A stretch of DNA of 64,000 bases from Halonotius aquaticus (GTDB lineage Archaea > Halobacteriota > Halobacteria > Halobacteriales > Haloferacaceae), in the NCBI RefSeq assembly GCF_003605575.1, contig NZ_QKNY01000018.1:310001-374000 (forward strand), written 5' to 3'. The notes under the pieces were generated by a model. The model ran no database searches. It saw nothing but the letters and a program-made list of their open reading frames with translations, and was not told the DNA's origin. The position numbers and the translations under genes are program-made. Below are positions 45,169 through 58,367 of the stretch, piece by piece. Position 1 is the first letter of the stretch. Every line of letters starts with the position of its first letter.

Positions 45169-46791
45169 TTAGCTATCCTGCCGCAACAACACGACCATCG
45201 AAAGCCCCGACACCACCAGCAGCAACAGCGACGGGACGACGGCGTACTGATAGAAAGCGTTCTCCTGGGCCCGCCAGATCACGGTCACCAGCGTCTCAAA
45301 TCCCGTCGGCCGCAAGATTAGCGTTGCCGGGAGCTCCTTCATCGTCGTCAGGAACACGAGCGCGCCGCCGGCGACAATGCCAGGCGTGACCAGCGGCAGC
45401 GTGACCGTCCGAAACGCCCGCAGCGGCGTCTCCCCGAGCGTTCGGGCAGCCTCGACAAGCTTGGGGTCGACCTGTAGCGTCGAGGTGCGGATCGAGCCGA
45501 CGGCCTGCGGCATAAATCGGACAACGTAGGCAAAGATCAACAGCGGCACGGTCTGGTAGATCGCCGGGAGGAGGGGCAGATCGAGGCCGTCAAACCCAGT
45601 CGCAAAGAAGACCAACGCCAAGCCGAGGACGATCCCCGGGACAGCAAAGCCGACGTAGGTCGCCCGTTCGAAGACCCGCGCCGCGAGTGAATCATGTCTG
45701 GCCGCGAGGTAAGCGACCGGGACGGAGGCGGCGACGGCGACGAGGGCGGCGGCGGCGGCGACACCGATGGAGTTTGTGACTGTCGACAACTGGAGGGCTA
45801 ACGACGGCCGGGCAGTCAGATCCGCGGTCACAAACCACAGCCCAAGGATCCACAGCGGGACAAGCAGTGCCAACCCTGCGACCGCCGCCGGCAACAGGGT
45901 CGCCGGCCACCGCCAGACGCCAAGCGATATCAGCGGCTCCTCGCCGGCCGTCCCGACGCCGTCGCCGTGGCCGCCGCCATCAGCCCGAAGCCGGGATTCG
46001 ATGGCGAGAATCACGAGCACAATCCCCAGCAGTTGTAACGAAAGCAGCGACGCATAGTCCTGGCCGAAAGAATCCAACTCCACGAAGATCTGCCGGGTAA
46101 ACACCGGCAGTCGCATGATGACCGGCGTACCGAAATCCGAGACAGCATACAGCGCGGCCAGCAGCGCGCCGGCGGCGATCGACGGACGGACGTGCGGCAG
46201 CGTCACCCGACGAAACGCCTGCCAGCGACCGTGATTCAGCGTCCGGGCAGCCTCAAGCAGCGTCGAATCAAACGACAACAACCCGGCGCGAGCGGTGAGA
46301 TAGACGTACGGATAGGTATACAGCGTGATCACCAGTATCGAGCCCGGAAGCCCATAGATCTCCGGGAGGCGGTCGATCCCAAGCGGTTGGAGGATCGCCT
46401 GGAACTCCCCGCGGGGGCCAAACGCCGAGACAAACGTGAACGCGCCGATGTAGCTCGGCACCACAAGCGGGAGGGCGACGACAACCGACCAAAACCGCCG
46501 GAAGGGAAGATCAGTTTGGACGGTCAGCCACGCCAGCGGCACGCCGATCAAAATCGACAGCCCGGTCACCCCGCCCATCAGCAACAGCGTGTTGAGCAAC
46601 ACGTCGGCGGTCGCCGGACGCGCAAGGAGATCCCACGCTCGGTCGGGCGCAACGCGGATCGCCTCAAGTACCAGCCACGTCAGCGGCACCAACAGCGTCG
46701 CCGCGATCGCGCCGGCCAACAGCGTGAGCCCGACTGATCGGTCACCACTGCCGTCGGCGATGGCACGAAGTCGGTCGATGGGTGAGGTCAT
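45169..46791 (-). CDS. Ferric iron ABC transporter permease (two fused domains)
   Basis: 540 residues with about 12 membrane helices. Two permease units each carry the EAA loop that meets the ATPase: EAARTLNHGRWQAF (about 216-229) and EAARTLGETPLRAF (about 463-476). This double design fits FbpB/SfuB-type iron permeases. The start MTSPIDRLRAIADGS lies 95 nt from an iron-box operator, in a divergent promoter with the oxidoreductase pair. The matching binding protein is at 54 kb and no ATPase gene is in the window. Confidence 0.87.
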   Translation of the reverse strand: MTSPIDRLRAIADGSGDRSVGLTLLAGAIAATLLVPLTWLVLEAIRVAPDRAWDLLARPATADVLLNTLLLMGGVTGLSILIGVPLAWLTVQTDLPFRRFWSVVVALPLVVPSYIGAFTFVSAFGPRGEFQAILQPLGIDRLPEIYGLPGSILVITLYTYPYVYLTARAGLLSFDSTLLEAARTLNHGRWQAFRRVTLPHVRPSIAAGALLAALYAVSDFGTPVIMRLPVFTRQIFVELDSFGQDYASLLSLQLLGIVLVILAIESRLRADGGGHGDGVGTAGEEPLISLGVWRWPATLLPAAVAGLALLVPLWILGLWFVTADLTARPSLALQLSTVTNSIGVAAAAALVAVAASVPVAYLAARHDSLAARVFERATYVGFAVPGIVLGLALVFFATGFDGLDLPLLPAIYQTVPLLIFAYVVRFMPQAVGSIRTSTLQVDPKLVEAARTLGETPLRAFRTVTLPLVTPGIVAGGALVFLTTMKELPATLILRPTGFETLVTVIWRAQENAFYQYAVVPSLLLLVVSGLSMVVLLRQDS

Positions 46792-46885
46792 CGGTAGAGG
46801 AGACGGTAGGTGAGCGAAACAGTTCCGAGGGGACAACGGTATCGGTTCCGTTCTGTCGGCGGTCGGATTCCAACGGATATAAGGT

Positions 46886-46899
46886 TTAGGTTTACCTAA
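46886..46899. promoter_or_regulatory. Iron-box operator A
   Basis: TTAGGT-TT-ACCTAA lies between the TATA-like ggatataagg and the ATG of the oxidoreductase gene, so a repressor here would block the start. It could also serve the divergent permease 95 nt away. Confidence 0.6.
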
Positions 46900-46906
46900 T
46901 CCGCCC

Positions 46907-47443
46907 ATGGAACTGACCCGACGCGATGCTGCTGCCGCGCTCGCTGCCCTCGGGGCCGGCGGCGTCGCAGCCGTCGCTGTCGGTCGCACCGACGACAACG
47001 CTGGCCAGCAGGCCGACGATATCGACGAGGCGGCGATCCGGACGACGATGGTCGCCGCCGCCGAGGTCGTCTATCCGAATGCCGTCTCCGGGGTCGACGA
47101 GTTTGTCAACGCCTTCCTCGACAGTCGACTGGCCGGCGATCGCCACGCCGCCGCCGTCAACAATGCGGTCGCCGCCCTCAACGACCGCGCCAACTCGTGG
47201 TACGACGACCGGTTTGCCGATCTCGATGCCGACACGCGTGATGCAGTGCTCCGGGAGATGGCGGTCGACACGGCTGAACCGCGCCGGGAGGGAGCGACCC
47301 GGGAGACGGTGCGATACTACGTCGTCAACGAACTCCTGTTGGCGCTTTACAGCTCGCCGACCGGCGGCGAGTTGGTCGGCATCGAAAACCCACAGGGGTA
47401 CGCCGGCGGGATCGGCAGCTACCAACGGGGGCCGACACCGTGA
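46907..47443 (+). CDS. Gluconate 2-dehydrogenase subunit 3-like protein (Tat)
   Basis: 178 residues. MELTRRDAAAALAALGAGGVAAVAVG is a Tat-type signal with a short hydrophobic run, and no lipobox follows. The rest (about 40-178, TTMVAAAEVVYPNAVSGVDEF) is the small subunit fold found in bacterial gluconate 2-dehydrogenase complexes. It overlaps the next gene by 4 nt, so the two are coupled. The acceptor sugar is unknown. Confidence 0.8.
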   Translation: MELTRRDAAAALAALGAGGVAAVAVGRTDDNAGQQADDIDEAAIRTTMVAAAEVVYPNAVSGVDEFVNAFLDSRLAGDRHAAAVNNAVAALNDRANSWYDDRFADLDADTRDAVLREMAVDTAEPRREGATRETVRYYVVNELLLALYSSPTGGELVGIENPQGYAGGIGSYQRGPTP

Positions 47444-49065
47444 GCGGGCGACCACCAGCCGAAGACATCGAAAACAGCGCGGGCGCGACTGACCGCACGC
47501 CCGTCGACAACGCCGACGTGTGTGTCGTCGGCGCGGGGCCGGCGGGCGCGCTCGTCGCCGACCGCTTAGCTGATGCCGGCCACGAGGTGGTCGTTCTCGA
47601 AGCCGGGCCGCGGTTCGATTTTGACGACCGACTCGCCCGCCAGGAGAAGGCGATCCGGCCCACCTACGACCGCCCCGACGTGTGGGACAGCGATCCCGAA
47701 CGCGACGCCCACTCGAATTCGGGTGAATGGATCTACCCACTCAACCACGCCCGGGCGAAGGGCGTCGGCGGCTCGACGCTGCACTGGCAGGGGATGGTGA
47801 TGCGGCTCCACGAGGCTGATTTCAACTCGAAGAGCGAACGGGGTGTCGGTGCTGATTGGCCAATCGACTACAGCGACCTCCGATCGTACTATCTCGCCGC
47901 CGAGCGTGCGATCGGCGTCGCCGGCGGCGACAACCCCTTCGCGCCGCCACGCGAGGAGCCCCGCCCCATGCCGGCGTTTGAGCCCTCCTACAGCGACAGC
48001 CTGTTCGCGGAGGCTTGCGACGAACTCGAAATCGCCATGCATCCGGTGCCGAACGCGCGAAACTCCGAGCCCTATGACGGCCGGAGCAGCTGTGTCGGCT
48101 ACGGTACCTGCCAGCCGGTCTGTCCATCGGGGGCGAAATACGACGGCACCGTGCATATCGAGTCAGCCGAAGACAAAGGGGCGACTGTCATCGACCGTGC
48201 CGCCGTCCAGCGGCTCGATCACGACGCCGACCGAATCACCGCCGCAACCTACGCGACGCCGGACGGCGAGCATCGACAGGAGGCTGATGCCTTCGTCCTC
48301 GCGGCTGGTGGGGTCGAGATCCCGCGGCTGCTCCTGCTCTCGGAATCCGACCAATACCCCGATGGCCTCGCCAACTCCAGCGGTGCGGTCGGCCGGTTTT
48401 TCATGGATCACCTCTTTGCGGGGATGGGTGGCACGCTCGATGAGCCGACCCGACAGAACCACATCGGCTTTCTCACCAGCGAGAGCCACCAGTTCTACCA
48501 CGAGGCCGACGACAAGTTTGCACCATTTAAACTCGAATTTTTCAATTATGCTGGCCCCTCACCGGTCGAGATGGCGCTCACAGGCGACGACTGGGGTGAC
48601 GACCTACTGGAGCGGCTGCAGGACGGCTACGGCACCCACATTGCCATGGGCGGGTTGGTCGAGCAATTGCCGCGTGAGGACAGCTACATCGGCCTCGACG
48701 AGTCGACGACCGATAATCACGGTAATCCGGTGCCGGATGTCCACTGGAACGTCGGCGACCGGGCCTTACGAACCATCGAGCGCGCAAACGAGATCCAGCG
48801 GTCGATTCTCGACGAACTGGGCGTCGAGATCGAATGGACAGCCGGCCCCGACAGCACCGGGCCAGCCTACCACCACATGGGGACGACCCGAATGAGCGAC
48901 GATCCGGCCGACGGCGTCGTCGACGCCGACTGTCGCACCCACGATCTCGATAACTGCTGGATCGCTTCTAGCTCCGTGTTTCCGACCGGCGGCGCGATGA
49001 ACCCCACGCTGACGATCGCCGCTCTCGCGCTCCGCGTTGCCGATGCGGTCGATACGGCGGTGTGA
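47440..49065 (+). CDS. GMC-family oxidoreductase (gluconate dehydrogenase large subunit-like)
   Basis: 541 residues of a flavoprotein that oxidises alcohols or sugars. The FAD motif VVGAGPAGALVADRL is at 29-43, a GGSTLHWQGM segment follows (about 110), and a cysteine-rich insert (SSCVGYGTCQPVCPSGAKYD) replaces the usual region. The C-terminal GMC domain has the active-site His in HHMGTTRM and Asn in GAMNPTLTI. It has no own signal peptide and probably hitchhikes with the small Tat partner encoded upstream. Its GTG start overlaps that gene. Confidence 0.88.
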   Translation: MSGRPPAEDIENSAGATDRTPVDNADVCVVGAGPAGALVADRLADAGHEVVVLEAGPRFDFDDRLARQEKAIRPTYDRPDVWDSDPERDAHSNSGEWIYPLNHARAKGVGGSTLHWQGMVMRLHEADFNSKSERGVGADWPIDYSDLRSYYLAAERAIGVAGGDNPFAPPREEPRPMPAFEPSYSDSLFAEACDELEIAMHPVPNARNSEPYDGRSSCVGYGTCQPVCPSGAKYDGTVHIESAEDKGATVIDRAAVQRLDHDADRITAATYATPDGEHRQEADAFVLAAGGVEIPRLLLLSESDQYPDGLANSSGAVGRFFMDHLFAGMGGTLDEPTRQNHIGFLTSESHQFYHEADDKFAPFKLEFFNYAGPSPVEMALTGDDWGDDLLERLQDGYGTHIAMGGLVEQLPREDSYIGLDESTTDNHGNPVPDVHWNVGDRALRTIERANEIQRSILDELGVEIEWTAGPDSTGPAYHHMGTTRMSDDPADGVVDADCRTHDLDNCWIASSSVFPTGGAMNPTLTIAALALRVADAVDTAV

Positions 49066-49081
49066 CAGCCGAACTATCCTA

Positions 49082-49099
49082 TTTTAGGTAAACCTAAAA
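49082..49099. promoter_or_regulatory. Iron-box operator B
   Basis: TTTTAGGT-AA-ACCTAAAA, a perfect 8-bp inverted repeat, sits directly before the TATA-like agtataaac (49100-49108), 32 nt before the glycosyltransferase ATG. Binding would hide the promoter. Confidence 0.75.
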
Positions 49100-49130
49100 G
49101 TATAAACCGGAGCGGCCAAAACGGCAGGTA

Positions 49131-49907
49131 ATGAGTCACGGACTGCAGCACGAGGCCGACACGGAACCGCGGACAAACGGGGCTGAACACGCCGACGCGA
49201 GCGTCGAGGGTGACAACACGGAGACAGACCGGTTCACATTCGACGACCTAAGCGTCGTGATGGGCACCTACAACGAGGAGGCCGCCATCAGCACTGTTCT
49301 CGACGACATCGAGCGCGTCACCGACGGCAAGGCCGAGGTCGTCTGCGTTGACGGCTCCTCGGATCGCACGCCCGAGATCGCCCGCGAGCACGGCGCACGC
49401 GTCATCGAACAGGAGCCACAGGGGTACGGCGTCGCCGTCAGCGCGGCGATCCACGCCGCCGACCGGCCGGTTGTCGTCACCACCGACTGCGACGACACCT
49501 ATCCGATGGAACAGCTTCCCGAGTTCCTCGACGAGATCAACGACGGCGCGGATGTTGTCAGCGGCGACCGACTCTACCACGGTGCGGAAGCGATGCCGGG
49601 TTTCAACCGGTTTGGCAATCAGGCCTTCGCCGCGATTGCGAGCGTCCTGATGGGCGAGCGCGTCCACGACACGACGACCGGAATGCGCGCCTACCGGAAG
49701 GAGGTCATCGACTCCATCGAGTGGACCGAGAACACGGGGCTCTCAGCAGAACTCCTCATTCGCCCGCTCATGCGGGGCTACGAGGTTCGCGAGGCACCGA
49801 TCAGCTACGCCGAGCGCGCCGGCGAAACAAAGCTTGATCCGATTCAGGGCGGCGCGGAGATCGCAAAGTCGATCCTGAAGGTTGGTCTCGAAGAGCGGTT
49901 CCGATAG
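49131..49907 (+). CDS. Glycosyltransferase family 2 (dolichyl-phosphate sugar transferase-like)
   Basis: 258 residues. A 35-residue acidic N terminus is followed by a GT-A fold: VVMGTYNEEAAISTVLDDI (about 42-60), DXD-like DCDDTYPMEQ (about 122-131), and a QGYGVAVSAAI segment (about 102-112). This pattern fits enzymes that load a sugar on dolichyl phosphate for protein N-glycosylation. There is no membrane anchor. Its promoter carries the best iron box of the window. Confidence 0.85.
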   Translation: MSHGLQHEADTEPRTNGAEHADASVEGDNTETDRFTFDDLSVVMGTYNEEAAISTVLDDIERVTDGKAEVVCVDGSSDRTPEIAREHGARVIEQEPQGYGVAVSAAIHAADRPVVVTTDCDDTYPMEQLPEFLDEINDGADVVSGDRLYHGAEAMPGFNRFGNQAFAAIASVLMGERVHDTTTGMRAYRKEVIDSIEWTENTGLSAELLIRPLMRGYEVREAPISYAERAGETKLDPIQGGAEIAKSILKVGLEERFR

Positions 49908-49927
49908 TTCACGCCTGCTGTGACAAC

Positions 49928-51415
49928 TTAGCCGCGATGGACGATGGCGATATCGCAGTCGAGTTCTTTGAGCTGTTCGAACGTCGGCGCATCAATGATC
50001 CGGGAGACGACGGTACGGTCGGTGCTTGAGCCGAGGATCGTGAGATCGTAGTTGTCGGCGTGTACTGAGAGAAACGACTCCAGTGGGCTAGTTGTGACGC
50101 GTGTTTCGATGGCTCGTTCGAAGGGTTCGACCAGATCGGCGACCATCGCCTCGGCGGTACGGCGGTCACCCTCGCTGTCGATGCTGTGACAGACCGAGAC
50201 GTAGCTCATCTCACCGGCGAGTCGTTCGGCGAAATCCAACATCGCGTGGGCCACCTCGCCGTAGTGTTTGATCGGGACGAGGAGCCGCCGCCAGCTCGTC
50301 CGCTCGCCGTTGCTCCGAAGCACCACCACATCAAGGGTCGAATCAAACAGACCCCTGATGAACCGCGTCAACTCGCCGTCGGCGGTCTGGTAGGGCGTGA
50401 CCACGAGATCGCAGTTCGTCTCGGTGGCGGCTTCGACGGCGATCCGAGCATCGTCGGGCTCGCCGGCAACGACAACGACCTCACAGGGGATATCGAAGCG
50501 GTCGCGGAGGGACTCGGCGTGGGATTCGAGCGATTCGGCTGTCTCGCGGGCTGCTGCCGGAAGATCGGCGGCGGCAGTCGAGACCCGTCCGTCGGCAGCC
50601 GAACCGGTCGCCGCACCCCCGGTCGGTGTCACTCGCCGGAGTTCCGCCCCGCCGTCGGTATCAACGGCGTCGTCGGTCGCGTGTTCTCCATCGTTGACGA
50701 CGCCAAAGAGGACGAGCTTCCCGGTTTCGTGGGCGGCGGCGAGCTGTGCGCCGAAGGTGGCGACGGTGTCGGCTGTCTCGCCGCGCATCGGGACGAGCAC
50801 CTGATCGTCGGCGTGGGTGGTCTGGTAGAGGTAGTCGGCGCGCTGTTCGTAGATCTCCCGCCGCCAGACGACAAAGACGCCGACGACGATCAGCGAGGAG
50901 GCGAAGACGCTCACGACGTAGACGAACTGGGTGACCCCTGAGACGAGCACCAGCAACGCCGTCGAAAACGCCTGTGACTCCTCTAAGTCAAGCGCCCAGG
51001 TCACGATCCCGGTCAACAACACGCCGAAGGCGGCCGCCCCCGGGTTGATCTGGAACGTCTCAGGCGGTACCCGATACCAGTACCGCGCGCTGACGGCGAG
51101 GGCGACCCAGCCACAGACCGCACCCATCGTCATCCCGCCGACAAACCGCCGCGGCGAGGCGTACTGCGATTCGGGCTCACGAAACAGCGTGAACGCGCCT
51201 GAAACCAACGGGGGAAACAGCAGGAACGGAAGTAGGTCGATCGTGTTGGCGAGCCACGTCACCAGCCCGATCAACAGCGGCACGACCAACAGCAGCGAAA
51301 AATGGATGAAGTTCCGGGTATCCTCAAGCCAACTGCGGAAATCACGTCGCTTTCGGCGAACGAGTCGCAGAAGCCGGCGAAAAGCCGTTCGGAGCCGGAG
51401 CCCAAGCGACGACAT
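49928..51415 (-). CDS. HPP membrane protein with UspA-like domains
   Basis: 495 residues. Residues 1-45 are basic and cytoplasmic, about 40-190 form the four HPP-type membrane helices (FIHFSLLLVVPLLIGLVTWL, FLLFPPLVSGAF), followed by a long cytoplasmic part with two adenine-nucleotide-alpha-hydrolase-like (UspA) folds: the first around 205-360 and the second around 365-495, ending TILGSSTDRTVVSRI. It is the last gene of a leftward set that begins with the iron-binding protein. The transported or sensed molecule is unknown. Confidence 0.8.
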   Translation of the reverse strand: MSSLGLRLRTAFRRLLRLVRRKRRDFRSWLEDTRNFIHFSLLLVVPLLIGLVTWLANTIDLLPFLLFPPLVSGAFTLFREPESQYASPRRFVGGMTMGAVCGWVALAVSARYWYRVPPETFQINPGAAAFGVLLTGIVTWALDLEESQAFSTALLVLVSGVTQFVYVVSVFASSLIVVGVFVVWRREIYEQRADYLYQTTHADDQVLVPMRGETADTVATFGAQLAAAHETGKLVLFGVVNDGEHATDDAVDTDGGAELRRVTPTGGAATGSAADGRVSTAAADLPAAARETAESLESHAESLRDRFDIPCEVVVVAGEPDDARIAVEAATETNCDLVVTPYQTADGELTRFIRGLFDSTLDVVVLRSNGERTSWRRLLVPIKHYGEVAHAMLDFAERLAGEMSYVSVCHSIDSEGDRRTAEAMVADLVEPFERAIETRVTTSPLESFLSVHADNYDLTILGSSTDRTVVSRIIDAPTFEQLKELDCDIAIVHRG

Positions 51416-51472
51416 AGCCACGGAGAGGGACGGTATCGACAAAAAGCCACGCCTCAGTGGCGGCGACACCGC

Positions 51473-53725
51473 TCAGCCAGTCGTCGTCACCGTGGTCTCG
51501 AAGTCGACCCACTCAGGGTGAGCCGTCGGATCGTCGGGGAGATAGGCGTCTTCCGGATCACAGTCCGTTGTGAGCCGACAGACACGCCGCTCCGCTGGGG
51601 TGACCGCCTGCACGCCCGCCGGCGTCGACTGCACCGCCGTCCACTGCTGGTAGGTGTAGGTGTTGCCACCGGTGTCGACCAGGGTGACCCGGAGACCGAC
51701 GTTCTCAGTCGGATCAATCGGGACTGACGTGTTGCCCGCGACGGGCGTCCCGTCGACACCGACCAGTCGGGCCGAGCCGTTGTCGAGCGTCCAGTTCGCG
51801 GTGATCGTCTCGCCGGGCGCGTCGATATCGCGGATCACTGTCTCATCGTCAACTTCGAGCGCGACGATCGCTCGCGTTACCTGCTCGGCGACACCGACCT
51901 GCGTGTCGGCCTGTAGTGATTCGCCGGTCGGCGTCGACAGCGACTCCAGTTTCGGGGCGACATGTTGGTCGGGATTCGGCGTCCACACCCCACGGTAGGC
52001 AAACCGGTAGACCGACCGGTTCGGATAGGCCGCCAGCACCTCGAAGTTCCCCGCCGCGTCGCGGTCGCGGGCGTAGACCACCTCGCCGTCGAAGCCGGGG
52101 TCGTTCCGTAACGACTGGAAGGGGTGGTTCTGCCAGGGGCCGTAGGGATCGGGAATAAACACGAGAGCGTTCTCGAAGTCGGCCGACTCGATTGGCTCGT
52201 AGGCAGTCTCGTACTTCTCGGTGTAGGCCATGTTGCGGTCAAGCGGTTCGGCAACCGCGCCCGCAGTCGCGCCGCCAACCGCGAGGGCGGCGACAAGCGC
52301 GACAGCGACGGCGATACCCCGGGCAGCCGCGGGCGACGTGACAGTAGCGAGACGGTCGAAAGCGGCCTCCTCTCGGAGCCACCGCCAGCTAGCGACGAGG
52401 CCGAGCGCCGCAAAGATCGACAGCGGCACCAAGAGATCGAAGTAGTAGAACGGGCCAAAATGCGAAACCAGGCCGTTGGCCGGATTGTCCAACTCGGCGA
52501 GCATGTTGTGGGTGCCCCAAAACGGGATGTTGCCGAGCGGCACCGACACGAAGAGTCCCGCGAGCAGCAGGCCCGCCGTTGAGCCCCACTCGCGGTCGCG
52601 CTTTCGCCACCACCGCGCGGCGACGAGCAGGCCGCCAGCCGCCGCCAGTGTCCCGATGACACCGCCGACGAACCACCGGGTGCCGAGAAACTGCAGCGCG
52701 TAGCGGTTGGACTCGATGGCGAGTGCAAGCGTGTAATCAACGGAGTAGCCGAGGATTTCACGGAACCCGAACCCCGGCCCGTCCAACGGCGCGAACGCCT
52801 GATACGGGAAAGTCAGCGGCGCGCCGGTGAGGACGGCGTTGTACGCGAGTGTGAGCCCAACAAAGGCGCTCCCGCCGATGCCGGTAAGCGTGTTGCGCTG
52901 GATCGGGGTCGGCAGCGACCGGAACCCGGCTCGACTCCCAGCCAGCCGCACCTGCCGCGTTAGCGAGCGGTCGTCGACCCACAGTTCGCGGGTAACTGAC
53001 CACAGCGCGTGGATAATGAACGGCGCGGCGAACAAAATCGCCGTATAGGGCCGGGCGAACGCGGCGAGCCCGATAGCGACCCCGGCGGCCGCGGCCGCCC
53101 GCAGCGACCCGGTTCGGACACCGTGGAGATAGGCAACCGCAAACGAGAGATTCAGCAGCGTCGTCGGCGCGTAGGGCAGAAACACCGACGACGTGAACAG
53201 CGTCATCGGCGACGCCGCGAACAGCACGCCCGCCAGCAGCCCGACGCGGCGGTCGGCAACCATCGAGCCGAGGATCGCCACGAGCACTGCGTTGCCGGCG
53301 GCGACGACCGCCAGCGTCACCCGTGGTTCGTTGAAGAGGGCCATCGAGACCGCAACCATCGCCGCTGGTACGGGGTTGTACTTCGGGTAGAGCTCGCCGC
53401 CGTCCGCGATAAAGAACCAGGGCCGAAACACGTCAGCGAGATCGCCGCCGGCCAGCGTGAGTTGGCCCTCAAGCAGCATCGACGCCTGCATGAGGTAGAC
53501 CCCCTCGTCGTGATTGACCGAGTGATACGGAAAGACGAAGACAGCGATGAGAAAGACGGCGATCCCCGCACTCACACCGAGGGTGAGGTAGCTGGCAGTG
53601 CCCGAACCGATCCGGCGTCGAAGCCGGCTGACGCGGGTGGCTGCGTCAGTACTAGTGAGGCGACGAAACTGCTGTCGGAGCGGCCGAGCGACAATCGCCA
53701 GCAGGGAACGCAGGTCGAACGACAC
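51473..53725 (-). CDS. Membrane glycosyltransferase (ArnT/PMT-like)
   Basis: 750 residues with about 12 membrane helices and a C-terminal outer beta domain (about 520-750). An acidic loop VNHDEGVYLMQASMLLEG (about 71-88) near the first helix holds the catalytic Asp-Glu pair of the GT39/ArnT type, which take sugar from a lipid-phosphate donor. It is 3 nt from the iron-binding protein gene, on one transcript. Substrate unknown; a glycan transfer at the cell surface is inferred. Confidence 0.82.
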   Translation of the reverse strand: MSFDLRSLLAIVARPLRQQFRRLTSTDAATRVSRLRRRIGSGTASYLTLGVSAGIAVFLIAVFVFPYHSVNHDEGVYLMQASMLLEGQLTLAGGDLADVFRPWFFIADGGELYPKYNPVPAAMVAVSMALFNEPRVTLAVVAAGNAVLVAILGSMVADRRVGLLAGVLFAASPMTLFTSSVFLPYAPTTLLNLSFAVAYLHGVRTGSLRAAAAAGVAIGLAAFARPYTAILFAAPFIIHALWSVTRELWVDDRSLTRQVRLAGSRAGFRSLPTPIQRNTLTGIGGSAFVGLTLAYNAVLTGAPLTFPYQAFAPLDGPGFGFREILGYSVDYTLALAIESNRYALQFLGTRWFVGGVIGTLAAAGGLLVAARWWRKRDREWGSTAGLLLAGLFVSVPLGNIPFWGTHNMLAELDNPANGLVSHFGPFYYFDLLVPLSIFAALGLVASWRWLREEAAFDRLATVTSPAAARGIAVAVALVAALAVGGATAGAVAEPLDRNMAYTEKYETAYEPIESADFENALVFIPDPYGPWQNHPFQSLRNDPGFDGEVVYARDRDAAGNFEVLAAYPNRSVYRFAYRGVWTPNPDQHVAPKLESLSTPTGESLQADTQVGVAEQVTRAIVALEVDDETVIRDIDAPGETITANWTLDNGSARLVGVDGTPVAGNTSVPIDPTENVGLRVTLVDTGGNTYTYQQWTAVQSTPAGVQAVTPAERRVCRLTTDCDPEDAYLPDDPTAHPEWVDFETTVTTTG

Positions 53726-53728
53726 GGC

Positions 53729-54865
53729 CTACGTGCTGATACCCACGTCGCGCATCAGGTCGATCGTTGCCCGGACGTTGGAGAGCTCGGCGATATCGAA
53801 CTCCGGCACATCCAACTCGTCGACGGTCGGGAGATCACCGACCGGTTCGACCTCGGGGATGAGCGGGTATTCGAACGTTTCGACCGCAAAATACTCCTGG
53901 GCTTCCGCCGAGAGGAGATGTCGAACGAAGTTTTGGGCGAGTTCGGGGTTCGGGGCCGTGTCGACGACGGCCGCGCCGGCGACGTTGAAGATCGCGCCGG
54001 CGTCGCCGCTGGTGAAGGCGGTGTCGATCGGCGCGCTCGGGGAGCCATCGAGGACGCGCTGGATGTAGTAGTGGTTGGTGAAGCCAGCGTCGAGTTCGCC
54101 GTTGGCGATCGCCTGGGCGACCTGGAACTCGTCGGCGTAGGGAGTGATCCCGGCGTCGACGACGCCCTCCAGCCACTCGCGGGTCGCCTCCTCACCCTCG
54201 AAAATGCGCATCGCAGTGACGAATGCCTGACAGGAGCCGTAGGTCGGGGCCCATCCGAGGTCGCCGTCGAACTCGGGGAAGGCCATGATGTCGTCGGGGA
54301 TGTCACCCTCGCTGTAGGCGTTAGTGTTGAACGGGACGGTGCGGGCGCGGCCGGAGGTGCCGACCCACTGGTCGGTGCGGAACTCCTCGCTGACCGTCTC
54401 CTGGATCTCCGTCGAGAGGGTCTGGGTGCGGCCGGCGTCGGCGAGCGCGCCGAGGTTGCCGGCATTGACCGTGTAGAACACGTCAGCCGGCGAACCGTCG
54501 CCTTCGGTGTCGATCGTGTTGACGAGATCGCTGCCACCGCCGTAGCGAACGCTCGGCGTGAAATCCGGATAGGTCTCGTCGAGGAACGAGATCAGCTCGC
54601 CGACGAGGAACTCGTTGCGGCCGGAGTACAGCTCCAACTCGCCTTCGAGATCCGGGAGTTCAGCGATCGGTGTCCCACCGGGGGCTGGCCGACCGGCGCG
54701 ACCGGAGCCGATCTGCCCGATCGAGGAATCGGTTGGCTCCTCGGTTGCCTCGCCGTCATTGCCGGTACAGCCGGCGATCGCAACCGCGCTGACGCCGGCT
54801 GCGCCTGCGAGAAACCGCCGTCGACTACTGTGTGTCAGTCCATTGCCGTCCGCGTTCTGTGTCAT
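53729..54865 (-). CDS. Ferric iron-binding lipoprotein of an ABC transporter
   Basis: 378 residues. The N terminus has a Tat motif SSRRRFLAG (13-21) and lipobox AIAGC with C33 as lipid anchor. The mature part is an FbpA-type ferric-binding fold (LYSGRNEFLVGELI, FYTVNAGNLGALADAG), with tyrosines that would hold Fe(III) in the YIQR and YGSC regions. Its permease is 7 kb away, at the other end of the cluster. The mRNA seems leaderless: TATA at about 54888-54894, with an iron box between it and the start. Confidence 0.9.
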   Translation of the reverse strand: MTQNADGNGLTHSSRRRFLAGAAGVSAVAIAGCTGNDGEATEEPTDSSIGQIGSGRAGRPAPGGTPIAELPDLEGELELYSGRNEFLVGELISFLDETYPDFTPSVRYGGGSDLVNTIDTEGDGSPADVFYTVNAGNLGALADAGRTQTLSTEIQETVSEEFRTDQWVGTSGRARTVPFNTNAYSEGDIPDDIMAFPEFDGDLGWAPTYGSCQAFVTAMRIFEGEEATREWLEGVVDAGITPYADEFQVAQAIANGELDAGFTNHYYIQRVLDGSPSAPIDTAFTSGDAGAIFNVAGAAVVDTAPNPELAQNFVRHLLSAEAQEYFAVETFEYPLIPEVEPVGDLPTVDELDVPEFDIAELSNVRATIDLMRDVGIST

Positions 54866-54867
54866 AT

Positions 54868-54885
54868 TTTTAGGTCTACCTAAAA
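54868..54885. promoter_or_regulatory. Iron-box operator C
   Basis: TTTTAGGT-CT-ACCTAAAA, arms perfect, lies 3 nt upstream of the iron-binding protein start and overlaps the transcription start expected from the TATA box. It is the strongest argument for iron control of this gene. Confidence 0.75.
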
Positions 54886-54895
54886 CAACTTATAC

Positions 54896-56092
54896 TCACT
54901 GGTTCGCTGTCGGGGTTGTCTCGGCGAGCGCGTCGAGGCAGTCGAGCCAATCGCCCATGAACTCGCCGACGTAGTTGAAGAACTCGCCGTTGTTGTACTC
55001 GTCCCAGTCGCCGCCTTCGAGTTCGTCAGCCATCGCCTCGAAGATCGCGGCGTAGGCTTTCGGATCAGCACCGAAGGCGTCACCTGACTGGTCGACGGCC
55101 GCGGCAGCTTCCTCGCCCACGTCGTCGATAATCTCCCAGAGGTGTTCGTTGAGTTCCAGCCCCGGCACCTCGTTGTTGAGGTCGTCGAAGGTGCTCCGGG
55201 GGGCCTTGTTGTGCTCACAGAGCGGTTCGCCGTTGTAGATCTGCGTGCCGAGGATGTCGCAGGCGCGTTTGAGGAAGACGCCCGACCAGATATCGTCGAA
55301 GCGGCCCACGTCCCACTCGTTTTCGTCCATCGGCAGCTGGTAGAACGCCGGAATTACCTCCCGGCGGAAGGCGAGATTCATCGAGCAGACGGTGAGATAG
55401 TTGCCCTCTTTTGCGACGAAATCGCCGTCGTAGTCGTCCTTCGAGGTTCGGGTTTGGGCTTGGCCCTGTAGGTCGCCGTCCATCAAAATTCGGACCGCGT
55501 CGAGGTCGGGCACGTTCGTCCAGAGGCCTTGGGAGGCGACGATCTGCTCGGCGTGGGCCTGCTCGGTTTCGACGCTCTCGTGCATCGCCGAGTAGGGGTA
55601 GCCGCGCGGATAGAGGTCGTGTTCGTCGGCGTTCTGATAGAGGACGTTCACCCACTGCTCGTCGGAGGAGACGGTCTCGATCTCGCCCTCGAAGGCGAGA
55701 TTGTCGAGGTGGGTGCCGAAGAAGTCCCACTCGTCGTGCGGGAGGGTGTCGTCGTCGATGAAGAAGCCGTAGTCGTAGTCACCGGCCCACATATACAGGA
55801 GCCCAAAGCTGGTCTCGGCGTGGCTGGCGGCGGGGACGATGTGGCTGTACTCGCTCACACCGTGGGCCTCGTACCACTCCTCGCGGCGCGTCCCATCAAA
55901 GACTTCGCCGGCAACGTCGTCTTCCTCTTCGAGCATCGCTTCCATCTCGTCGGTCTCACAGAAGTCCTCGGTGACGAGGATCACATCCAGCCGCGAGAGA
56001 TCGAAGCCGTGTTTGCGGGCGTTCTCGAAGTACGACCGCATACACTCGTACTCGCGGATCGTCGGCACGATAACGCAGATGTCTCGGCTCAT
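54896..56092 (-). CDS. RGP-like protein (alpha-1,4-glucan-protein synthase family)
   Basis: About 398 residues of the reversibly glycosylated polypeptide (GT75) family, whose plant members are UDP-arabinopyranose mutases. The N terminus MSRDICVIVPTIREYECMRS and the DDD-type segment GFFIDDDTLPHDEW (about 115-128) are clear. An alternative start 15 nt upstream (56107) abuts the iron box; starting at 56092 leaves about 25 nt to a TATA-like region, so I prefer it. The 54896 stop is 31 nt before the iron-binding protein gene. Confidence 0.78.
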   Translation of the reverse strand: MSRDICVIVPTIREYECMRSYFENARKHGFDLSRLDVILVTEDFCETDEMEAMLEEEDDVAGEVFDGTRREEWYEAHGVSEYSHIVPAASHAETSFGLLYMWAGDYDYGFFIDDDTLPHDEWDFFGTHLDNLAFEGEIETVSSDEQWVNVLYQNADEHDLYPRGYPYSAMHESVETEQAHAEQIVASQGLWTNVPDLDAVRILMDGDLQGQAQTRTSKDDYDGDFVAKEGNYLTVCSMNLAFRREVIPAFYQLPMDENEWDVGRFDDIWSGVFLKRACDILGTQIYNGEPLCEHNKAPRSTFDDLNNEVPGLELNEHLWEIIDDVGEEAAAAVDQSGDAFGADPKAYAAIFEAMADELEGGDWDEYNNGEFFNYVGEFMGDWLDCLDALAETTPTANQ

Positions 56093-56108
56093 TTGGGTAC
56101 TCACCATT

Positions 56109-56126
56109 CTTTAGGTGATCCTAAAA
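56109..56126. promoter_or_regulatory. Iron-box operator D
   Basis: CTTTAGGT-GA-TCCTAAAA: two mismatches from the consensus. It stands 17 nt before the preferred RGP start and contains a TATA-like core. Confidence 0.55.
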
Positions 56127-56138
56127 GGTGTGTCGGAT

Positions 56139-57338
56139 TCAGTCGTCGGGGCTGCTCGTCGCCTTGCCGCTGCCGTCGGCTCGGGCCTCGCCGGTGACGG
56201 GCGGCTCCGTCGCGGTCGCCGCTGTCGCGTCAGCATCACCGCCAGCATCAACGTCGCTACCGCGCCGGGCGGCCGTCGAGGGGTCGATCCCGAGGACGGC
56301 GACGGCGACACCGCCACCGACCAGCGTCACCGCGTTTTTCAGGGCGTGGTCGACGACCGCCGCGGCCAAGGCGAGACTCGCCCCAAGCGGTGTCAACGCG
56401 ACGACCAACCCGGTGAAGGCAGCCTCGTAAAGGCCGACACCTCCCTGCGACAGCGGTAGTACCTTGGCGAGGTTGCCGACGCTGACCGCCAGCGTGCCGA
56501 CCGCGAGCAACGGGCCGACCGCCAGCCCGCTGTCGAGTGCGGCGAGGACGAGCACCGCGGTGGCGACATCCAGCGACCAGATCAGCAGGCTGCCGCCGCC
56601 GATAACGGCGACCGCCCGCGAATCGCGGGCGACGACGGCGATTTCGGCCGCAAAATCGAGTGCGGCGTCAACCACAGTCTGCAATCGTGGCCGCCCGGCG
56701 ACAGTGTCGCGGAGTCGACGACCGAACCGACGGCTGCGCGAGCGGTTCGCGTTGGCGACGCCGAGCGTGAGCACGCCAGCGATGAGCGTCACCGCTGCAA
56801 CGGCGACGGCCCCCAGCAGCGCGGTTTGGGTGTCGCCGGTGGTCAGCGCCGCCAGTGCGGTCGACTCGCCGGCGACAAGCCACGCGGTCGCGGCGGATCC
56901 CAACACGGCAATCGCAGCAAGGTCGAAGCCGCGTTCGACCGCCAGCGACGCGAAGCCCGCGGGGTAGTCCACGTCACGGCGCGCTTGGAGGACGTAGGCC
57001 CGCACCGCGTCGCCCGCCCGCGCCGGCACGACGAGGTTCGCCGTCTGGCTGAGGAAGACAGCCAGCGTGAGAAAGCCGGTTCCGAGCGGGTGGCCGGTCG
57101 TCGCCAGCACGTCGCCGTACCGTCGCCCCCTGAGGGGCCAGGAGACCGTGTAAACGGCGACCGCTGCCGCCAGCAGCCACGGATCGGCAGCCGCCATCTC
57201 GCCGGCGACGCGGTCGAACTCGACGTCCCGGAACGCAAACAGCAGGCCGGCGACGACGAGGACGGTGCCGCCGAGCATCAGGCGACGCTGCGTGAGGAAC
57301 CCGCGATTGGTTGTCCCCGCGTCGTCGCCGTTGGTCAT
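56139..57338 (-). CDS. Flippase-like membrane protein (LPG synthase transmembrane family)
   Basis: 399 residues with about eight helices of the UPF0104/lysylphosphatidylglycerol-synthase transmembrane type, for example LLAAAVAVYTVSWPLRG and GFLTLAVFLSQTANLVVPARAGD. The N and C termini are polar and cytoplasmic. The pattern NLVVPARAGDAVRAYVL is typical of this family, members of which move lipids or glycolipids across membranes. It faces the RGP gene and is linked to the cluster by a weak iron box. Confidence 0.8.
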   Translation of the reverse strand: MTNGDDAGTTNRGFLTQRRLMLGGTVLVVAGLLFAFRDVEFDRVAGEMAAADPWLLAAAVAVYTVSWPLRGRRYGDVLATTGHPLGTGFLTLAVFLSQTANLVVPARAGDAVRAYVLQARRDVDYPAGFASLAVERGFDLAAIAVLGSAATAWLVAGESTALAALTTGDTQTALLGAVAVAAVTLIAGVLTLGVANANRSRSRRFGRRLRDTVAGRPRLQTVVDAALDFAAEIAVVARDSRAVAVIGGGSLLIWSLDVATAVLVLAALDSGLAVGPLLAVGTLAVSVGNLAKVLPLSQGGVGLYEAAFTGLVVALTPLGASLALAAAVVDHALKNAVTLVGGGVAVAVLGIDPSTAARRGSDVDAGGDADATAATATEPPVTGEARADGSGKATSSPDD

Positions 57339-57360
57339 ACACAGCCGTTCGTAGCGAGAT

Positions 57361-57378
57361 ATTTAAGCCCACCTAAAA
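57361..57378. promoter_or_regulatory. Weak iron-box half-site E
   Basis: One good arm (ACCTAAAA at 57371-57378) faces a poor one (ATTTAAGC, three mismatches) that doubles as the TATA-like element of the flippase-like gene, about 25 nt from its start. Regulation here is uncertain. Confidence 0.35.
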
Positions 57379-57437: not shown

Positions 57438-58367
57438 TCAGCAGAGTTCGTCGATCAGTTCTTGTGTCGATTTCCGGACAGCGTCGTCGCTGCTCAGGCT
57501 CGGCTCCCAGCCGAGGGCAGCGAGTTTCTCGATCGAGAGCCGCATCTTCGGCACGTCGCCCGTCCAGCCGCGGTCGCCGCCGGTGTACTCGTAGTCGGGA
57601 TCGAGACCCATCTCGTCGGCGACGATGGCGGCGATCCGGTCGACAGAGGTGGTCGTCCGTGTCCCGAGGTTGTATGTGTTCATCGCATCGTCAGCGGTGG
57701 CGACGATGTGTAGCATAGCGTCAACGCAATCCTCGATGTGGAGATAGGATTTCTCTTGGCGGCCGTTGCCGAGGATGGTGAGCGTCTCGGGGTCGTCAGT
57801 GAGCTTTTCGATGAAATCCGGAATCACGGCACCGCGGAGCCCCGGGCCGACGACATTGGCGAAGCGGAAGTTCCAGACCGTGAGGTCGTGGCTGTGAGCG
57901 CGCGCCGAGAGCAGGCCTTCGTCGGCGAGTTTGCTCGCGCCGTAGGCGCTGATCGGCTCCAGCGGGGCGAAATCCTCGGGCGTTGGCCGTGGGGCCTCGC
58001 CGTAGACCGTCGATGAGGAGGTGTAGGCGATCTTCGTCACGTCGGCGTCAGCCATCGCCTCCAAGAGATTCAGCGTCATCTGCGTGTTGTCCTCGAACTG
58101 GCCGTGTGGACGGTCGGTGTCGACGAGTTTTGAGGCTGCGAGGTGGAAGACGAGGTCGACCCCGTCGAGAACACCGTCAAGCGCATCGGGGTCGGTCAGA
58201 TCGGCTTCGACGAGTTCGGCGTCGTCAGCGACGCGGTCGCGGGAGCCAGACGAAAGGTTGTCGACGACGGTGACGGTCGCGCCGTCGGCGAGCAGGCGGT
58301 CGACGAGGTGTGAGCCGACGAAGCCGGCGCCACCCGTGACGAGGACATGCTGAGTCGAGAGATCCAT
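57438..58367 (-). CDS. NAD-dependent sugar epimerase/dehydratase
   Basis: 309 residues of the extended short-chain family. The NAD motif GGAGFVGSH lies at about 12-20, the Ser-x-x-x in YTSSSTVYGE (about 114-123) and the Tyr-Lys pair in YGASK (about 140-144) are intact, so it should be active, most like UDP-glucose 4-epimerase. It would feed the glycosyltransferases of the neighbouring block. There is no iron box upstream of it. Confidence 0.88.
   Translation of the reverse strand: MDLSTQHVLVTGGAGFVGSHLVDRLLADGATVTVVDNLSSGSRDRVADDAELVEADLTDPDALDGVLDGVDLVFHLAASKLVDTDRPHGQFEDNTQMTLNLLEAMADADVTKIAYTSSSTVYGEAPRPTPEDFAPLEPISAYGASKLADEGLLSARAHSHDLTVWNFRFANVVGPGLRGAVIPDFIEKLTDDPETLTILGNGRQEKSYLHIEDCVDAMLHIVATADDAMNTYNLGTRTTTSVDRIAAIVADEMGLDPDYEYTGGDRGWTGDVPKMRLSIEKLAALGWEPSLSSDDAVRKSTQELIDELC

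Follow-up and report, generated by a model that had tools for sequence, protein, structure and literature searches.

A probable iron box joins a ferric transporter to a co-inherited putative surface-sugar module in haloarchaea

Haloarchaeal regulons of the DtxR family (Idr, SirR and TroR, as well as the FerR signal) are characterised by a palindromic box near the TATA element of ferric and siderophore uptake genes, and the targets described for them in the literature consulted are uptake and metabolism genes. The FerR signal was reportedly predicted in haloarchaea by Leyn and Rodionov in 2015. In Haloferax volcanii, all fhu operons are said to carry it (PMC11349517). We analysed a 64,000-nt window of the 2.47 Mb genome of Halonotius aquaticus (NZ_QKNY01000018.1, assembly GCF_003605575.1, positions 310,001–374,000), in which a similar box is found before iron-uptake genes, but also before sugar genes; two clear DtxR-family genes are likewise present in this genome. 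The transporter resembles bacterial FbpABC, with an FbpA-type binding protein carrying the NxYY motif (SBP), an FbpB-type two-domain permease (PERM) and an FbpC-type ATPase. It differs in that its gene order is interleaved with those of a putative nucleoside diphosphate (NDP)-sugar mutase (RGP) and a GT-C glycosyltransferase (GTC), and in that the ATPase is encoded at an unlinked position with a box of its own. RGP, GTC, a dolichyl-phosphate hexose transferase-like protein (GT2) and a flavin (FAD)-dependent sugar dehydrogenase (GMC, paired with the small subunit G2DH3) form a putative surface-sugar module, accompanied by a flippase-like protein (FLIP) and an epimerase (EPIM).

The useful core of the palindrome is TTAGGN4CCTAA, which occurs exactly at positions 46886, 49084, 54870 and 56111 of the window and with one mismatch at 57363. 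Compared with the longer form TTTTAGGTNNACCTAAAA, there were no mismatches at 49082–49099 and 54868–54885, two at 56109–56126, and three at both 46884–46901 and 57361–57378, giving five matches in the window versus 0.02 expected from shuffled sequences. All five sites that a sequence-only reading of this window had listed were present, but its statement that each lies between or across TATA box and start was too general, as the GT2 site is upstream of the TATA box and RGP has no clear TATA box. The site before FLIP had been taken for half a palindrome; a site is indeed there, but as a variant that is conserved and merges with the TATA box, with TTTTAGGTGGGCTTAAAT or a near-identical sequence found again in Halonotius, Natrinema and Halobiforma loci. 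The TATA-to-ATG spacing at SBP and G2DH3 is approximately 27–29 bases, with the palindrome in between. Since the palindrome lies either on the TATA box (FLIP) or between TATA box and ATG (SBP, G2DH3), the layout would fit repression by blocking of the pre-initiation complex.

The genome-wide motif search proposed by the sequence-only reading gave eight exact cores in the H. aquaticus genome, four of which are in this cluster. Of the other four, one precedes the FbpC-type ATPase gene and one a gene for a 54-aa protein beside a Dps-like gene, and two lie together close to genes for a tRNA and a thioredoxin-like protein. Shuffles, the reversed-letter pattern and 29 other palindromes of the same letters served as controls. 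When one mismatch was allowed, the reversed-letter control was commoner than the motif in this genome (44 versus 12 matches), so that one-mismatch matches say little by themselves and the argument depends on where the sites lie and how well they are conserved. Across eight other haloarchaeal genomes there were 79 exact cores, compared with 10 matches to the reversed control. Conservation was assessed in 80 homologous loci from many genera (1.55 Mb in total, SBP identity from 93 down to 49 percent), which contained 286 exact cores. Of these, 281 lie in promoters of RGP, SBP, GT2, G2DH3/PERM and FLIP, while 28 of the 29 other palindromes did not occur at all and the remaining one occurred three times. 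The exact core was present in the RGP promoter in 76/80 loci (one mismatch in the other four), in the SBP promoter in 72/80, in the GT2 promoter in 50/61 (plus five with one mismatch), in the G2DH3 promoter in 46/49 (plus three with one mismatch) and in the FLIP promoter in 32/49 (one mismatch in 16/49). EPIM was preceded by a box in 1/33 loci. PERM was considered as a further box-bearing promoter and rejected, with a box in 3/65 loci; the divergent site was assigned to G2DH3, the start of PERM being further away.

Outside the cluster, the box precedes FbpC ATPase genes in the window's own genome and elsewhere (L093, L097, L102 and L121 in our numbering), as well as FhuD-type (L104, PF01497), FecCD (L115) and SufC-like ATPase (L131) genes; sufS of H. 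aquaticus (L094) has a box with one mismatch. The palindrome is therefore very probably an iron box, given its place before genes for ferric ATP-binding cassette (ABC) transporter subunits, uptake proteins of the FhuD/FecCD type and SufC. The earlier proposal of an iron-box regulon holds for the conserved palindrome in iron-uptake promoters, and the two clear DtxR-family genes are candidates for its regulator.

Several further genes and sites were associated with the box. A family of proteins of about 55 residues, with a C-terminal pattern like GRTVFTExGNxDGWIATDxxV, has an exact box at the start codon in many genera (L005 at C12:39565 of the own genome, L099, L108, L111, L116, L127 and L133), and may represent a small iron-stress protein; one member was searched against Pfam and gave no match. 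Pairs of exact boxes 34 bases apart are located at C12:114725 and 114759 in H. aquaticus (L007, L092) and at C27:10441 and 10475 in another genome (G001, L098), near tRNA and thioredoxin-like genes and with no obvious protein start beside them, which could drive a small RNA or a very short gene. Large lipoproteins that look alike are found behind boxes in L101 (a full DUF5059 protein), L114, L122 and L124, and are candidates for a haloarchaeal iron-uptake component. A box is also located upstream of the apparent start of a DUF542/RIC-type iron-sulfur repair protein (L119, about position 2052), and in two genera (L128, L134) boxes lie between genes for a short coiled-coil-like protein and a metallo-beta-lactamase-fold protein.

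Inheritance of the module was surveyed in 116 Halobacteria genomes, with RGP recognised by PF03214, GT2 by NF041391 over its cut-off, GTC by PF25230 and GMC by E ≤ 1e-200. RGP, GT2 and GTC were present in exactly the same 92 genomes, and GMC in the same 92; a further genome contained no more than a GMC paralogue (at 8e-173). Hfx. volcanii is among the carriers of RGP and of the DUF7846 protein. At least five genera include both species or strains that have all four genes and others that lack them all; since the surveyed genomes are related to one another, we put no probability on this co-inheritance. RGP immediately precedes SBP, in the same orientation, in 91 of the 92 genomes, the remaining RGP being at a contig end, and in the commonest gene order SBP lies between RGP and GTC. 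The three Haloferax-type loci examined have the order RGP-SBP-PERM-ATPase-GTC. Where GT2 is unlinked from RGP (>16 kb away), the box is kept in 16/16 cases (6 exact, 10 with one mismatch), and where the G2DH3/GMC pair is located elsewhere an exact box is found in 43/43. The central claim of the sequence-only reading, a shared iron-type box joining a ferric ABC transporter to glycan genes, was thereby extended across the haloarchaea; the oxidoreductase pair that it listed with a divergent iron permease is preceded by the box as it said, and belongs to the glycan module itself rather than to iron uptake alone.

The predicted functions of the proteins (Table 1) are consistent with ferric uptake and with a surface-sugar pathway. 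SBP matches a solved ferric-binding protein (E 3.8e-52), and N264, H265, Y266 and Y267, which represent a tandem-tyrosine iron site, are conserved in 81 sequences. RGP matches MtdL (E 1.7e-22) and a plant UDP-arabinopyranose mutase (UAM; E 6e-5), and the residues needed by MtdL (DDD, R159, S228, R257, D260 and H287; PMC9937993) correspond to RGP D118-D120, R168, S242, R269, D272 and H299, each at ≥98% in 81 sequences, so that the invariant DDD and the catalytic Arg, Ser, Arg, Asp and His of the GT75 mutases (MtdL, plant RGP/UAM) are all retained. Unlike these mutases, RGP is linked to iron uptake rather than to antibiotic or cell-wall arabinan synthesis. One haloarchaeon carries a second RGP (G020, C2:1525556-1526527; 353 aa) that matches the Pfam model over nearly its full length (E 1e-135). 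This copy, possibly acquired by horizontal transfer, resembles the classical family much more than the iron-linked RGP does.

GT2 also matches Dol-P-Man synthase and ArnC-type structures. The GTC model (mean predicted local distance difference test score, pLDDT, 85.7) matches AglB, ArnT and AftA, and D73 and E74 are invariant, as in a GT-C fold with an acidic first outside loop. These matches recall the ArnC-ArnT pathway for 4-amino-4-deoxy-L-arabinose (L-Ara4N) and the mycobacterial decaprenyl-phosphate arabinose/AftA-Emb pathway, which share the scheme of NDP-sugar to polyprenyl-phosphate sugar, flipping, and transfer on the outside by a GT-C enzyme; the haloarchaeal genes differ by iron-box control, the DUF7846 domain and the added dehydrogenase. 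GMC has the conserved motifs HHMGTTRM, with a His/Asn active site, and GAxNPT, and the cysteines C218, C224 and C228; three such cysteines hold an iron-sulfur cluster in FAD-glucose dehydrogenase. For the small subunit G2DH3, no match to a solved structure was found, and it was assigned by Pfam only. A twin-arginine motif (RR within the first 20 residues) is present in 47/50 G2DH3 homologues, and joint export of G2DH3/GMC by the twin-arginine translocation (Tat) system is therefore likely. The combination of a GMC large subunit with conserved cysteines and a small Tat-type subunit is also that of FAD-glucose/fructose dehydrogenases, but here there is no adjacent cytochrome subunit gene, and the pair is always co-inherited with the glycosylation pathway.

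Table 1. Genes and palindrome sites of the cluster, in window positions.
Feature	Position	Strand	Assignment	Remarks
PERM	45169–46791	-	two-domain ferric-type ABC permease	BPD_transp_1; start ATG 46791 likely
Probable iron box, exact core TTAGGTTTACCTAA	46886–46899		between divergent PERM and G2DH3	between G2DH3 TATAAGG and ATG
G2DH3	46907–47443	+	gluconate 2-dehydrogenase subunit 3 family	PF13618; N-terminal twin-arginine motif
GMC	47440–49065	+	FAD sugar dehydrogenase	like FAD-glucose/fructose dehydrogenase large subunits, E about 1e-87
Probable iron box	49082–49099		before GT2	just upstream of GT2 TATA box
GT2	49131–49907	+	dolichyl-phosphate hexose transferase family	NF041391, 411.6 bits (cut-off 375)
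GTC	51473–53725	-	GT-C membrane glycosyltransferase	PMT_2 and PF25230; outside DUF7846 domain
SBP	53729–54865	-	Fe(III)-binding lipoprotein, FbpA type	Tat signal and lipobox; NxYY motif
Probable iron box	54868–54885		before SBP	between TATAAG and ATG; leaderless-type promoter
RGP	54896–56107	-	GT75 NDP-pyranose mutase family	PF03214
Probable iron box	56109–56126		directly before RGP	exact core; RGP without clear TATA
FLIP	56139–57338	-	UPF0104/LPG_synthase_TM flippase-like protein	PF03706, TIGR00374
Probable iron-box variant, TTTTAGGTGGGCTTAAAT	57361–57378	-	before FLIP	right half doubles as TATA
EPIM	57438–58367	-	NDP-sugar epimerase/dehydratase (short-chain dehydrogenase/reductase), GalE-like	PF01370; likely accessory; no own iron box

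The gene at 49928-51469, a fusion of HPP transmembrane and universal-stress domains at the end of the SBP-GTC operon, is found in only a few close relatives; it was considered as a module member and rejected, being present in few loci and lacking a box. The UPF0104 protein HVO_1859 rises 11.6-fold in Hfx. volcanii under iron starvation (PMC11349517), but we could not establish it as a FLIP orthologue. When FLIP was compared with three Haloferax genomes, its best matches lay in open reading frames of 650–855 aa resembling AglD-type two-domain proteins, and no exact or one-mismatch box was found near them, so that the induction of HVO_1859 is not usable as support.

We consider it reasonably probable that iron shortage de-represses the ferric transporter together with a module that makes, attaches and oxidises a surface sugar. 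A repressor responding to iron, for which a DtxR-family protein loaded with Fe(II) when iron is plentiful is the likeliest candidate, would bind TTAGGN4CCTAA over or beside the TATA boxes, and a drop in iron would lead to joint production of the FbpABC-type transporter (SBP, PERM and the ATPase encoded elsewhere) and the surface-sugar module. RGP would convert an NDP-pyranose to an NDP-furanose, GT2 would load the sugar onto dolichyl phosphate, FLIP or a similar protein would turn the lipid-linked sugar outward, and GTC would move it to an acceptor outside the membrane, where G2DH3/GMC, probably Tat-exported, would oxidise a sugar at the surface. The module sugar is probably furanosyl and would be polyprenyl-linked; candidate acceptors are the SBP linker, the S-layer, lipids and polysaccharide. 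The boxes, their degree of conservation, the enzyme families and key residues, and the exact co-inheritance of RGP, GT2, GTC and GMC can be read directly from the genomes; by inference we add the dependence on iron, the direction in which control works, the succession of the pathway steps, and the sugar, acceptor and purpose.

Several observations weigh against this proposal. Eleven genomes have SBP and PERM but no module, with RGP, GT2 and GTC absent from that locus, and since they keep the transporter the module is not required for ferric transport as such; a box with at most one mismatch is nevertheless nearby in 10 of these 11 loci. The match of RGP to GT75 spans the catalytic region but is remote. 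Its nucleotide preference is ambiguous, as S95 resembles the GDP-using MtdL while the N-terminal VPTI resembles plant enzymes. Only about 50 of the 80 loci have FLIP close to the cluster, which means that another flippase must serve elsewhere, and the substrate of GMC may be a free sugar instead of the glycan.

Among other explanations, we would give almost no credence to the glycan genes being passengers of a box that serves iron transport only and is shared by proximity. SBP does adjoin GTC, which lacks a separate box in all of 79 loci, but RGP, GT2, FLIP and the GMC pair each have their own, the box persists at GT2 and the GMC pair when these are unlinked (16/16 and 43/43), and the four genes are inherited as a set. 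It is very unlikely that the palindrome answers to manganese, zinc, redox or another signal instead of iron: the regulator is inferred and DtxR-family proteins include manganese sensors, but the genes behind the palindrome encode ferric ABC parts, FhuD, FecCD and Suf proteins. General remodelling of the surface under iron stress (S-layer, lipids or exopolysaccharide), unrelated to iron capture, is the sort of response in which GT-C enzymes, Dol-P sugar synthases and UPF0104 proteins, as classical surface-glycan parts (PMC5898192), would be expected, and we regard it as a possibility on the unlikely side, the position of RGP directly before the ferric-binding protein in 91/92 genomes being closer than a general stress response needs.

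Alternatively, the module may glycosylate SBP itself on its linker, and so protect, anchor or tune it, which we find doubtful. The position of SBP between RGP and GTC in the commonest order would agree with this, and in genomes with the module the SBP lipobox is followed by a conserved stretch, GQIGSGRxGRxxPGGT (GSG in 78/80), while Tat lipoproteins of Hfx. volcanii, including one ABC binding protein, are O-glycoprotein candidates (PMC8241124). However, residues 61-70 of this stretch are ordered in the structural model (mean pLDDT 93), so that its conservation may simply reflect the fold; GSG is also found in two SBPs from module-free genomes, and the two SBP groups represent different clades. 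The stretch is a weak candidate for the sugar acceptor site. We further consider, as an improbable extension of the proposed co-regulation, that a furanosyl residue attached outside the cell, possibly on SBP, is oxidised by GMC/G2DH3 to an iron-chelating group that feeds FbpABC. If true, such a surface-bound ligand would be a fixed, glycan-based counterpart of a siderophore, and its synthesis an iron-controlled archaeal O-glycosylation route.

An iron-box regulon of this kind is already known, and what appears new is the co-inherited four-gene surface-sugar module within it, of which no earlier description was found in the searched open literature, with the main DtxR regulon papers lying outside that literature and an earlier listing of single genes being possible. 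To our knowledge, this would also be the first case of an NDP-sugar mutase travelling with a ferric-binding protein. Across most of an archaeal class, the proposed co-regulation would link iron status to a genetically defined pathway for surface sugars, with RGP, GT2, GTC and GMC as its four marker genes.

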